From: Chaetoderma sp. LZ-2023a
Taxonomy: Eukaryota; Mollusca; Caudofoveata; Chaetodermatida; Chaetodermatidae
NCBI GenBank assembly: GCA_034401795.1
Contig: JAVVLW010002614.1
Coordinates: 1 to 64,000 of the forward strand
Direction: 5' to 3'
DNA length: 64,000 nucleotides
Position numbers and translations under genes: made by a program. Within the stretch, counting starts at the first letter, position 1. The number at the start of each line of letters is the position of its first letter. Below the pieces are notes generated by a model that did not search any database, was not told the origin of the DNA, and saw nothing but the letters and a program-made list of their open reading frames with translations. Shown one piece after another: positions 9,431 through 62,200 of this stretch.

Positions 9431-9660
9431 TAACAGTTTAATGGTCAAGTCGGCCAAAACTGATGATCCTCTGCAGTAGTCTTTAGGAATGTCCATTTGT
9501 AGGCCAAGTACAGACTATTTTTGAGAATGTACTATTGGAATAGCTGGATGGAGCCATGCCAGTCATTAAAGGGGTACAATTCTTCTCGTGTGCTGCACAT
9601 GGACAGTCACGAGGATAAAATGTGCACTTTATTGACCAATTATGATGATTTCCTCTTTAA
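9430..9660 (+). mobile_element. TTAA MITE family A, degraded
   Basis: Keeps GGTCAAGTCGGCCAAAACTG, GGAATGTCCATTTGTAGGCC and part of the centre; the right arm is strongly changed. It ends at a TTAA shared with the next element. Confidence 0.55.
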
Positions 9661-9921
9661 CCCGTAGCACTCTGATGTCAAAATTTTTAATTTTCAAATT
9701 AAATTAAAAGATGAACTGGTATACATTTTTCTACAAATTTGGTGGAAGATGGTGCTGTCGTAGAGGTGCTGTCGTAGAGGTGCTGTCGTAGAGGTGCTGT
9801 CATAGAGGTGCTGTCGTAGACTGCAACATAGTCCACCAAAATTGTTGAAAAATGCACACCAGTTTTTCTTCTATTGACACAGGAAAAGATAGAATATGGG
9901 CATCAGTGTGGTATGGGTTAA
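9657..9921 (+). mobile_element. TTAA MITE family D with 14-bp repeat at its centre
   Basis: Begins TTAACCCGTAGCACTCTGAT and ends with a block equivalent to CATCAGTGTGGTATGGGTTA. The arms contain ACAAATTTGGTGGAAGATGG and CCACCAAAATTGTTGAAAAA. Between them, GTCGTAGAGGTGCT is repeated about six times (about 9753-9825), at the place where other family D copies have only a short hairpin loop. Confidence 0.75.
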
Positions 9922-22950: not shown

Positions 22951-23355
22951 CCGCCATTTTCTGTTCACTTGGAGGCACGTAGTGTCCTGACAAAACAAAC
23001 ACGATATTTCATGCTGGGTTTGATGCATTAAAAGGATATCGCTAATTTAATAGCCTAATCTAATACGATTTGCTGGACAAATGAATTTTCTCCAGCGTAT
23101 TAGTTTATTGGCAGCTAGGTCTGTCTAACGTGACTCAATGCCAACACGGGCTAGCAATTCTTCCCTTAATCCTTGTTGGCACGGGAACGCAGTAATACCG
23201 CTTAGATTAGTAACATTTCTAAACGAATGGATATTGAGTTGTTCTCTATTTAATGATTCACAAACAATCATCTCTCCGTTTCTCATTTGTCCATAGGAGA
23301 TGAGAAGGATCTGTTACAGTACAGTTTAAAAAATACTTACATGCTTCCAAAATAA
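22951..23355. other. unassigned sequence
   Basis: About 400 bases of unrecognised sequence leading into the family B left arm that precedes the 22-bp array. Confidence 0.4.
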
Positions 23356-24990
23356 ATAAAACATATTATTGAATATTTTGAACAGAATTGTATTGGAAGA
23401 CATTGCTGCGAGTATTGGAAGACATTGCTGCGAGTATTGGAAGACATTGCTGCGAGTATTGGAAGACATTGCTGCGAGTATTGGAAGACAATGCTGCGAG
23501 TATTGGAAGACATTGCTCCGAGTATTGGAAGACATTGCTGCGAGTATTGGAAGACAATGCTGCGAGTATTGGAAGACATTGCTGCGAGTATTGGAAGACA
23601 TTGCTCCGAGTATTGGAAGACATTGCTGCGAGTATTGGAAGAGATTAAGACATTGCTCCGAGTATTGGAAGACATTGCTGCGAGTAATGGAAGACATTAA
23701 GACATTGCTGCGAGTATTGGAAGACATTGCTGCGAGTATTGGAAGACATTAAGACATTTCTCCGAGTATTGGAAGACATTGCTGCGAGTATTGGAAGACA
23801 TTAAGACATTGCTGCGAGTATTGGAAGACTGCTGCGAGTATTGGAAGACATTGCTCCGAGTATTGGAAGACACTAAGACATTGCTGCGAGTATTGGAAGA
23901 CATTGCTCCGAGTATTGGAAGACATTGCTCCGAGTATTGGAAGACATTGCTGCGAGTATTGGAAGACAATGCTGCGAGTATTGGAAGACATTGCTGCGAG
24001 TATTGGAAGACATTGCTCCGAGTATTGGAAGACAATGGTGCGAGTATTGGAAGACATTGCTCCGAGTATTGGAAGACATTGCTGCGAGTATTGGAAGACA
24101 ATGCTGCGAGTATTGGAAGACATTGCTCCGAGTATTGGAAGACAATGCTGCGAGTATTGGAAGACATTGCTGCGAGTATTGGAAGACATTGCTGCGAGTA
24201 TTGGAAGACATTAAGACATTGCTGCGAGTATTGGAAGACATTGCTCCGAGTATTGGAAGACATTGCTGCGAGTATTGGAAGACATTGCTGCGAGTATTGG
24301 AGGACATTGCTGCGAGTATTGGAAGACATTGCTGCGAGTATTGGAAGACATTGCTCCGAGTATTGGAAGACATTGCTGCGAGTATTGGAAGACATTGCTG
24401 CGAGTATTGGAAGACATTGCTGCGAGTATTGGAAGACATTAAGACATTGTTGCGAGTATTGGAAGACATTGCTGCGAGTATTGGAAGACATTGCTGCGAG
24501 TATTGGAAGACATTGCTGCGAGCATTGGAAGACATTGCTGCGAGTATTGGAAGACATTGCTGTGAGTATTGGAAGACATTGCTGTGAGTATTGGAAATCA
24601 TTGCTGCAAATATTGGAAGATATTGCTGCGAGTATTGGAAGACATTGCTGTGAGTATTGGAAGACAGTAAGACATTGCTGCGAGTATTGGAAGACATTAA
24701 GACATTGCTGCGAGTATTGGAAGACATTAAGACATTGCTGCGAGTATTGGAAGACATTGCTGCGAGTATTGGAAGACATTGCTGCGAGCATTGGAAGACA
24801 TTGCTGCAAGTATTGGAAGACATTGCTGCGAGTATTGGAAGACATTGCTGCGAGTATTCGGAGACATTGCTGCGAGCATTGGAAGACATTGCTGCGAGTA
24901 TTGGAGTATTAGAAGATATTGTTGCCGAGGGAAGCAACGTATGGCGTCCCAATCCAATTACGTTAAAAAAATTCAAAAGAACATTTCTTA
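23356..24990. repeat. 22-bp minisatellite inside a family B hairpin
   Basis: About 65 copies of GGAAGACATTGCTGCGAGTA plus TT (about 23391-24905), with CTCCG/CTGCG variants and about ten units lengthened by 8 bp (GACATTAAGACATT). The left flank is a family B left arm (TATTGAATATTTTGAACAGA, ATTGTATTGGAAG). The right flank (GAAGCAACGTATGGCGTCCC, AATCCAATTACGTT, ATTCAAAAG) resembles the B right arm. The unit itself resembles the B arm GGAAGCCATTGCTGCC. No stop codon falls in most unit frames, so long frames appear on both strands (for example 23779-24912 plus, 24845-23697 minus); I do not regard them as genes. Confidence 0.9.
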
Positions 24991-25038
24991 CTAAATAATA
25001 GATTTTAGCTGTGGGCAGCTAAAAAACTGTCATGTCCC

Positions 25039-25180
25039 TTAGTTAGTTAGTTAGTTAGTCAGTCGGTCGGTCGGTCGGTCGGTCGGTCGGTCGGTCGGTC
25101 GGTCGGTCGGTCGGTCGGTCGGTCGGTCGGTCGGTCGGTCGGTCGGTCGGTCGGTCGGTCGGTCGGTCGGTCGGTCGGGC
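25039..25180. repeat. (TTAG)n to (GTCG)n tetranucleotide tract
   Basis: About five TTAG units pass through TCAG into roughly 29 uninterrupted GTCG/CGGT units (about 25061-25179). Every GTCG unit contains a CpG. Confidence 0.95.
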
Positions 25181-28404: not shown

Positions 28405-28618
28405 AGGTAACACTTTCACCGATAAATCCCTGAAAAAGGTATATTCTTTATGATATAAATCTTACTCTGTTGAATATTTTGAAACTAATTTGACTGGAAG
28501 CCATTGCTGCCAAAGGCAGCAATGGCTTCCAGTCAAATTAATTTCAAATTATTCAAGTTTTCCTGCATGGTTGCCTTGAAAAGTAGATACATGATGAATT
28601 CATCGGTGAAATGGTTAA
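28405..28618 (+). mobile_element. TTAA MITE family B, complete hairpin
   Basis: Starts AACACTTTCACCGATAAATC and ends CATCGGTGAAATGGTTAA. The core at 28467-28555 is a near-perfect inverted repeat (CTGGAAGCCATTGCTGCC, AAA, then GGCAGCAATGGCTTCCAG). Good reference copy for the family. Confidence 0.8.
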
Positions 28619-59172: not shown

Positions 59173-59289
59173 CACTTTCAGTGACAAATTCCTGGAAAAA
59201 AAAATTCTTTATGATTTATAGCAGCATATTCCGCTGAATGCTTTGAAATTAATGTGACTGGAAACCATTGCAATGGACAATAACAAGAC
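59165..59289 (+). mobile_element. family B MITE, left arm only
   Basis: TCAACACTTTCAGTGACAAA, TTCTTTATGATTTATAGCAG, CGCTGAATGCTTTGAAATTA and TGTGACTGGAAACCATTGCA are the left side of family B up to its hairpin tip. The 55-bp array starts straight afterwards; no right arm is present in the window. Confidence 0.7.
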
Positions 59290-62200
59290 AATGATGATGA
59301 TAATGCAGTGTCACTCACTGGTATGTGGATGTGGATGCCGTGTAAATGATGATAATGCAGTGTCACTCGCTGGTAAGTGGATGCCGTGTAAATGATGATG
59401 ATAATGCAGTATCACTCGTTGATATGTGGATGTGGATGCTGTGTAAATGATGATGATAATGCAGTGTCACTCACTGGTATGTGGATGTGGATAGCATGTA
59501 AATGATGATGATAATGCAGTGCCACTCGCTGGTATGTGGATGTGGATGCCGTGTAAATGATGATGATAATGCAGTGTCACTCGCTGGTATGTGGATGTGG
59601 ATGCTGTGTAAATGATGATGATAATGCAGTGTCACTCGCTGGTATGTGGATGTGGATGCCGTGTACATGATGATGATAATGCAGTGTCACTCGCTGGTAT
59701 GTGGATGTGGATGCCGTGTGAATGATGATGATAATGCAGTGTCACTCGCTGGTATGCGGATGTGGATGCCGTGTAAATGATGATGATAATGCAGTGTCAC
59801 TCGCTGGTATGCGGATGTGGATGGCATGTAAATGATGATGATAATGCAGTCACTCGCTGGTATACGGATGTGGATGCCGTGTAAATGATGATGACAATGC
59901 AGTGTCACACGCTGGTATGTGGATGTGGATGTCGTGTAAATGATGATAATGCAGTGTCACTTGCTGGTATGTGGATGTGGATGCCGTGTAAATGATGATG
60001 ATAATGCAGTGTCACTCGCTGGTATGTGGATGTGGATGCCGTGTGAATGATGATGATAATGCAGTGTCACTCGCTGGTATGTGGATGTGGATGCAGTGTA
60101 AATGATGATGATAATGCAGTGTCACTCGCTGGTATGTGGATGTCATGTAAATGATGATGATAATGCAGTGTCACTCACTGGTATGTGGATGTGGATGCCG
60201 TGTAAATGATGATGATAATGCAGTGTCACTCGCTGGTATGTCGATGTGGATGGCGTGTACATGATGATAATAATGCAGTGTCACTCGCTGGTATGTGGAT
60301 GTGGATGCCGTGTAAATGATGATGATAATACAGTGTCACTCGCTGGTATGTGGATGTCATGTAAATGATGATGACAATGCAGTGTCACTCGCTGGTATGT
60401 GGATGTGGATGCCGTGTACATGATGATAATAATGCAGTGTCACTCACTGGTATGCGGATGTGGATGCCGTGTAAATGATGATGATAATGTAGTGTCACTC
60501 GCTGGCATGCAGATGTGGATGCTGTGTAAATGATGATGATAATGCAGTGTCCCTCGCTGGTATGTGGATGTGGATGTCATGTGAACATGATGATAATAAT
60601 GCAGTGTCACTCACTGGTATGCGGATGTGGATGCCGTGTAAATGATGATGATAATGTAAGGTCACTCGCTGGCATGCAGATGTGGATGCTGTGTAAATGA
60701 TGATGACAAGGCAGTGTCACTCGCTGGTATGTGGATGTCATGTAAATGATGATGACAATGCAGTGTCACTCGCTGGTATGTGGATGCTGTGTAACTGGTA
60801 TGCGGATGTGGATGCCGTGTAAATGATGATGATAATGCAGTGTCACTCACTGGTATGTGGATGTGGATGCCGTGTAAATGATGATGACAATGCAGTGTCA
60901 CTCGCTGGTATGTGGATGTGGATGCCGTGTAAATGATGATGATAATGCAGTGTCACTCGCTGGTATGCGGATGCTGTGTAAATGATGATGATAATGCAGT
61001 GTCACTCGCTGGTATGTGGATGTGGATGCAGTGTACATGATGATAATAATGCAGTGTCACTCGCTGGTATGCAGATGCCATGTAAATGATGATGATAATG
61101 CAGCGTTACTCGCTGGTATGTGGATGCCATGTAAATGATGATGATAATGCAGTGTCACTCGCTGGTATGTGGATGTGGATGCAGTGTACATGATGATAAT
61201 AATGCAGTGTCACTCGCTGGTATGCAGATGCCATGTAAATGATGATGATAATGCAGTGTCACTCGTTCGTATGCGGATGTGGATGGCGTGTAAATGATGA
61301 CAATGCAGTGTCACTCGCTGGTATGTGGATGTGGATGCCATGTAAATGATGATGATAATGCAGTGTCACTCGCTGGTATGCGAATGTGGATGCTGTGTAA
61401 ATGATGATGATATTGCAGTGTCACTCGCTGGTATGTGGATGTGGATGCCGTGTAAATGATGATGATAATGCAGTGTCACTCGCTGGTATGTGGATGTCAT
61501 GTAAATGATGATGACAATGCAGTGTCACTCGCTGGTATGTGGATATGGATGCCGTGTACATGATGATAATAATGCAGTGTCACTCGCTGGTATGCGGATG
61601 TGGATGCCATGTAAATGATGATGATAATGTAGTGTCACTCGCTGGTATGCAGATGTGGATGCCGTGTAAATGATGATGATAATGCAGTGTCACTCGCTGG
61701 TATGTGGATGTCATGTGAATGATGATGACAAGGCAGTGTCACTCGCTGGTATGTGGATGTCATGTAAATGATGATGACAATGCAGTGTCACTCGCTGGTA
61801 TGTGGATGTGGATGCCGGGTAAATGATGATGATAATGTTGTGTCACTCGCCGGTATGTGGATGCCGTGTAAATGATGATGATAATGCAGTGTCACTCGCT
61901 GGTATGCGGATGTGGATGCCGTGTAAATGATGATGATAATGCAGTGTCACTCGCTGGTATGTGGATGTGGATGTCGTGTAAATGATGATGACAATGCAGT
62001 GTCACTAGCTGGTATGTGGATGTGGATGCAGTGTAAATGATGATGATAATGCAGTGTCACTCGCTGGTATGCGGATGCCGTGTAAATGATGATGATAATG
62101 CAGTGTCACTCGCTGGTATGTGGATGTGGATGCAGTGTACATGATGATAATAATGCAGTGTCACTCGCTGGTATGCGGATGCCATGTAAATGATGATGAT

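Follow-up and report, generated by a model that had tools for sequence, protein, structure and literature searches.

The 22-bp minisatellite at positions 23390-24905 grew from the arm of the fold-back element that encloses it. The locus is one element of subfamily B2, in which the stretch from about consensus position 118 to 140 has been tandemly repeated. In the reading we prefer, to which we give a probability of roughly 0.6, a B2 element inserted, its inner left arm was duplicated and the duplication grew to about 65 units, with the folding of the arm favoring the first duplication. The window (the whole stretch of DNA analyzed, 64,000 nucleotides) comes from C1429, a contig of 102 kb in a genome assembly of 2.44 Gb and 2753 contigs. 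It is rich in minisatellites and fold-back elements, and two fold-back families, A and B, were aligned. Searching two ORFs of the window against Pfam gave none above the cut-off, one ORF compared with solved structures gave no match, and neither did an Rfam scan of the window.

The array and its host element

Splitting the array gave about 65 units of GTATTGGAAGACATTGCTGCGA. Most of the units were 22 bp long, ten were 30 bp and one was 20 bp. Tandem units of about 10-100 bp characterize a minisatellite, and 22 bp repeated about 65 times lies within this range. The original prediction had quoted a 20-mer as the unit, which is actually 22 bp. The features of the locus, and of a nearby element copy with which it had been paired, are as follows.

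23309..23389, + strand: left arm of the B2 fold-back element, single copy, from B2 consensus position 36 (with the first unit core, 87/100 identical)
23390..24906, + strand: 22-bp tandem array, about 65 units, each about B2 118-140, from the inner left arm to the hairpin turn
24907..24936, + strand: last, most diverged unit and hairpin apex (GTTGCCGAGGGAAGCAAC)
24937..25005, + strand: right arm of the same B2 element, single copy, to about B2 212 (24907-25010 is 77/93 identical)
28405..28618, + strand: B1 copy with an intact hairpin; not the before form of the array locus

The evidence for the origin came from the two flanks. A genome search with 23300-23480 returned the array itself (C1429 and a second contig, C563) and at least 38 other places (40 candidates were scored). 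In 34 of these 38 places the match to the left flank ended at query position 109-112, that is, at window position 23408-23411, which is the hairpin turn; the array continues past this turn, where the matches of the sister copies stop. Twenty of the 38 places were fetched, giving 19 loci of a sister subfamily, B2, and the locus C1:172.8M. The B2 consensus was built from 18 of the 19 sister loci (L041, being the same as L040, was left out), and the right flank was not used in choosing them. Its palindrome is centered on position 140. The left flank together with the first unit mapped to B2 consensus 36-137, with 87 of 100 aligned bases identical, and the right flank mapped to 120-212 (77 of 93). 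The two flanks thus overlapped on the consensus by 18 bases, and these 18 bases are the core of the 22-bp unit. That both flanks map to B2 and overlap in the unit core supports an origin of the array in the arm of the element.

We also compared the flanks with a consensus of B elements in the window, a 160-base palindrome derived from fourteen B pieces with the array locus left out. The segment 23340-23389 matched its left arm with a score of 41 and the segment 24926-24985 matched its right arm with a score of 40; none of 5000 dinucleotide shuffles did as well in either case. The longer left segment 23290-23389 was equaled by 17 of 5000 shuffles, and by one after the first unit was added, and the longer right segment 24906-25020 by none. 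The claim that arms of family B bracket the array was borne out, and its flanks match B copies elsewhere in the genome. The boundaries that had been given, 23356 and 24990, held in that the flanks are element sequence, but the copy extends further, over about 23309-25005.

The resemblance of the unit to the arm, from which, together with the bracketing arms, the birth of the array had been argued, was not significant by itself. The 22-bp unit alone matched the B arm no better than chance, with 680 of 5000 shuffled units doing as well, and the last unit was equaled in 119 of 5000. We therefore rejected this similarity as proof of origin; the case is carried by the register of the unit with both flanks. 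It is very improbable that the minisatellite was there first and that the element inserted into it or captured it. A review reports this idea for miDNA4 of Xenopus, but here the unit consists of the element's own arm and both flanks overlap in it.

The proposed precursor also changed. The copy at 28405-28618 had been regarded as the pre-expansion form, making a direct before/after pair with 23356-24990. It belongs to B1 and to another locus, so that it is neither an allele of the array locus nor the best before form; the supposed pair joins different subfamilies at different places. Its segment 28455-28570 folds at -41.8 kcal/mol (z -15.5), and the arms of the array locus, with the array removed, still pair imperfectly (-15.8 kcal/mol, z -2.7).

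Contig C563 carries a near-identical version of the array locus (99.78% over 21.6 kb), in which the locus is already expanded. We take C563 to be the other haplotype, but it may instead be a duplicate assembly. Its array is 110 bp longer than that of C1429, owing to five extra units, one at one place and four at another; this difference between two assembled contigs would be real if the assembly is correct. Of 13 arrays examined in both contigs, 10 were of equal length, and besides the 22-bp array the differences were in a GTCG microsatellite (-16 in C563) and a 37-bp array (-37). A TTAG/GTCG microsatellite, 16 bp shorter in C563, occupies 25039-25178, the place expected for the outer right end of the B2 copy that bears the array.

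The host element is short, non-coding and dispersed in many copies, as is characteristic of a MITE. The B1 element is about 210 bases long and gave 5612 candidates in a first look at the genome, 40 of which were scored; a search for the intact B2 apex matched 665 times on one strand and 669 times on the other, mostly palindromes counted twice. Terminal inverted repeats were present in both subfamilies. B1 ends in CCCTTTCACC... and ...GGTGAAAGGG, and in the B2 consensus TACAGTACAG lies close to one end and CTGTACTGTA close to the other. TTAA, a candidate target-site duplication, flanked B1 copies on the left in six of seven cases, on the right in four and on both sides in three. The host element may be piggyBac-like. 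The two subfamilies (L001-L008 and L040-L058) share the central hairpin and differ in their ends, TTAA with CCC/GGG versus TACAGTACAG, as if two kinds of element had carried one hairpin.

Other arrays in the window were also noted. The right flank of a 57-bp array at 1430-2430 is the right arm of family A (score 92, 0/5000 shuffles). Its last unit is similar to the left arm and apex of A (40/5000), and no A match was found in its left flank (4551 and 4739 of 5000 shuffles did as well). This may be another array birth, in a second fold-back family. At 9657-9921 there is an inverted repeat whose loop contains five copies of a 14-bp repeat (9751-9820). Another array, with a 55-bp unit, begins at 59290, 18 bp after a B left arm (59235-59271), and ends at 64359, beyond the window (L013); we did not count it as born in B, there being no B match after its far end until 68379. 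The 49-bp array at 31199-57047, with about 528 copies, makes up 40% of the window, and its flanks had no match among the repeats of the window.

Recurrent tandem duplications in B2 and B1

The first duplication of a minisatellite is usually hidden, as the grown array overwrites its own start. The original prediction had proposed looking for other B loci with few units, and such loci were found. Searched genome-wide, a pattern of TTGGAAGACATTGCTGC repeated directly after a gap of 2-20 bases matched 50 times, and the reversed pattern gave no match. The matches fell at five loci: the array locus (C1429 and C563), C1:172.8M, C2:118.4M, C14:155.0M and C15:109.2M. A shorter core pattern gave 313 matches (reversed, 0), and those listed (100 of 313) added C1:177.1M, C4:49.4M and C7:77.1M. 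There are therefore at least eight tandem B2 loci, each with its own unit and junction. The length of each unit and its fit to the B2 segment from which it comes are given below.

C1429/C563: unit 22 bp, 19/22 bases fit
C1:172.8M: unit 27 bp, 26/27 bases fit
C2:118.4M: unit 29 bp, 23/29 bases fit
C14:155.0M: unit 27 bp, 26/27 bases fit
C15:109.2M: unit 34 bp, 31/34 bases fit
C1:177.1M: unit 20 bp, 18/20 bases fit
C4:49.4M: unit 32 bp, 26/32 bases fit
C7:77.1M: unit 40 bp, 38/40 bases fit

On inspection, both arms of the element were present at six of the eight loci; no right arm was seen at C2:118.4M and no left arm at C1:177.1M. The right arm of the latter is split by a family A element. This element (L090, reverse strand, 111-330) has TTAA on both sides and lies inside the B2 apex adjoining the 20-bp array.

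Copy numbers ranged from 2.00 or 4.00 exact copies to 39-54 copies. Low-copy stages were C4:49.4M (L094), with 2.00 exact copies, and C14:155.0M (L074), with 4.00; neither shared any base at the junction. At C15:109.2M, inspection revealed TGGAC on either side of the first unit, 34 bases apart, which is the length of the unit. As a rough yardstick, B2 arrays were seen in at most about one in a hundred intact apexes.

Among the matches listed, the 22-bp unit was found only at the array locus, in C1429 and C563, and the other loci had other units. This bears on whether the array was born once in a parent element and brought here by transposition. Carrier elements of this kind are described in reviews, but the restriction of the unit to one locus among the matches listed (100 of 313) and the different units and junctions of the other listed B2 arrays make such a history highly unlikely here.

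B1 elements contained similar duplications. The tandem pattern for an arm 12-mer, CTGGAAGCCATT, gave 21 matches at 12 loci (reversed, 0): one match at each of nine loci, two at C12:165.6M, three at C12:172.0M and seven at C17. Eleven of the 12 are likely B1 tandem loci; the C17 locus was not counted as clearly B, because by eye its unit is unlike the arm outside the 12-mer. Four of the 12 loci were fetched for sequence. Three had two copies (1.76, 1.94 and 2.04 exact copies) and the fourth, on C6, had at least five diverged units. In L098, beside the two-copy duplication of the left arm, the apex and right arm also appeared to be partly duplicated.

Here, one MITE superfamily offers independent starts in a known ancestral sequence, with junctions at base level and stages that run from two exact copies to dozens.

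Does folding favor the first duplication?

We considered whether the hairpin tip has a special role. The ends of the B2 units lay between -6 and +7 from the center, which initially suggested a breakpoint hot spot at the apex, and the B1 unit ends had a standard deviation of 5.25 (1866 of 100000 random draws were as tight; two of the eleven were poorly mapped). This clustering was discounted because the search pattern itself restricts the possible end positions. An outer-arm core common to the superfamily, TTGAATATTTTG, gave 429 tandem matches and, when reversed, none. Among the matches listed were 50 sequences, of which 45 were used and five left out as neighbors in one array or near copies. 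In the 31 of 45 that fitted the element at ≥85% (the 14 below 85% were unused), the duplication ends ranged from -30 to 0 from the apex. They were spread rather than gathered at the tip, and the apex was dropped as a hot spot. A special role of the hairpin tip was not supported.

We also searched with one 12-mer from the outer part of B1, GGTTGCCTTGAA, which is unpaired by inspection, and its tandem pattern gave no match genome-wide. The comparison is therefore 12 loci for the paired CTGGAAGCCATT versus none for the unpaired GGTTGCCTTGAA, their single-copy frequencies being known from local samples only. Each of the two 12-mers occurred five times in a set of seven full-length B1 copies, which had been chosen for their resemblance to a full-length query. 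In positions 1-84000 of C1429 the arm 12-mer was twice as common, 4 to 2. The chance of observing 0 versus 12 is 0.0002 at equal opportunity, 0.008 at two to one and 0.11 at five to one, and omitting the C17 locus slightly weakens the contrast. Folding as the cause of array birth is thus hinted at, a lead and not a result. The earlier proposal that the array was born from a MITE hairpin stands for the derivation of the unit from the element's own arm, as the flank overlap shows, and the hairpin as the cause is at the level of this hint. Full counts would permit measuring whether folding DNA seeds arrays more than non-folding DNA of the same element.

In the reading given at the outset, a small tandem duplication would have arisen in one B2 insertion, covering its inner left arm as far as the hairpin turn (about B2 118-140). 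Two head-to-tail copies would then have grown to about 65 through slippage or unequal exchange, while the edges, with the outer left arm on one side and the apex and right arm on the other, stayed single-copy. The first step recurred in other members of the family, each time as a separate event, at various points along the arms. Folding of the arm into a hairpin or cruciform, causing stalled copying or breakage and rejoining, would have raised the chance of this first step. We lean to breakage or stalling at the folded arm followed by rejoining, because the junctions of the two young cases share no base and the one unpaired stretch shows no duplication.

These same two observations tell against an origin in the element in which folding is irrelevant, where any sequence with thousands of copies acquires some short tandem duplications, through ordinary slippage between short direct repeats or through end joining, and a few of these grow. 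In its favor, the family is large (5612 first-look candidates), and the outer arm contains numerous duplications with scattered ends. Direct-repeat slippage suffices to explain C15, with TGGAC spaced by the unit length, and, judging from the sequence, slippage at CTGTTG probably accounts for some of the 34-bp outer-arm units. We regard this alternative as a real possibility that falls short of even odds. Folding-linked breakage and direct-repeat slippage may both act.

A stronger form of the preferred reading, in which the paired arms are a minisatellite nursery with tens to hundreds of their own duplications in the foldable part, almost none elsewhere, and folding as the main cause, is put forward tentatively, as something we would bet against at present. 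If it were true, the hairpin or cruciform, and not copy number or direct repeats, would be the main driver of the birth of arrays, and the loci with two copies and more would form its fossil record.

Comparison with known systems

Arrays grown from MITE or fold-back arms are already on record (PMC4079207, PMC9659126, PMC6947457, PMC12628747), and the array locus is a new, well-resolved case of this known process. In the open-licence literature searched, as far as its accounts extend, we found no single MITE family described as having given rise to arrays repeatedly and independently, two-copy stages included.

A model of minisatellite birth by Haber and Louis, as presented in PMC6947457, involves a duplication followed by growth, the first unit being bounded by short direct repeats 5-10 bp long. 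The short direct repeats at C15 fit this model. In contrast, L074 and L094 have no shared base at their junctions, and by inspection the 22-bp array has at most one. Xstir, derived from a Xenopus MITE (Hikosaka and Kawahara), and miDNA4 (Scalvenzi and Pollet) are, according to the reviews PMC12628747 and PMC9659126, likewise tandem repeats that stem from a MITE with inverted ends or are carried by one. As the reviews describe them, however, each is one repeat family riding on an element, whereas here there were separate births in one superfamily.

Tetris/TIR-220, a foldback transposon of Drosophila virilis, carries repeats inside its inverted repeat, and allelic copies have three versus four units (PMC4079207). 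Our case is similar to Tetris as described there: tandem repeats lie in the inverted repeat of a fold-back element, near-identical contig copies differ in repeat number, and longer arrays arise from within. The two differ in that the repeat of Tetris, about 220 bp long, is common to many copies and has spread into satellite arrays. One unit common to many copies would mark an element-borne satellite; the 22-bp unit occurs at one locus among the matches listed, and the B elements carry separate units of 20-50 bp.
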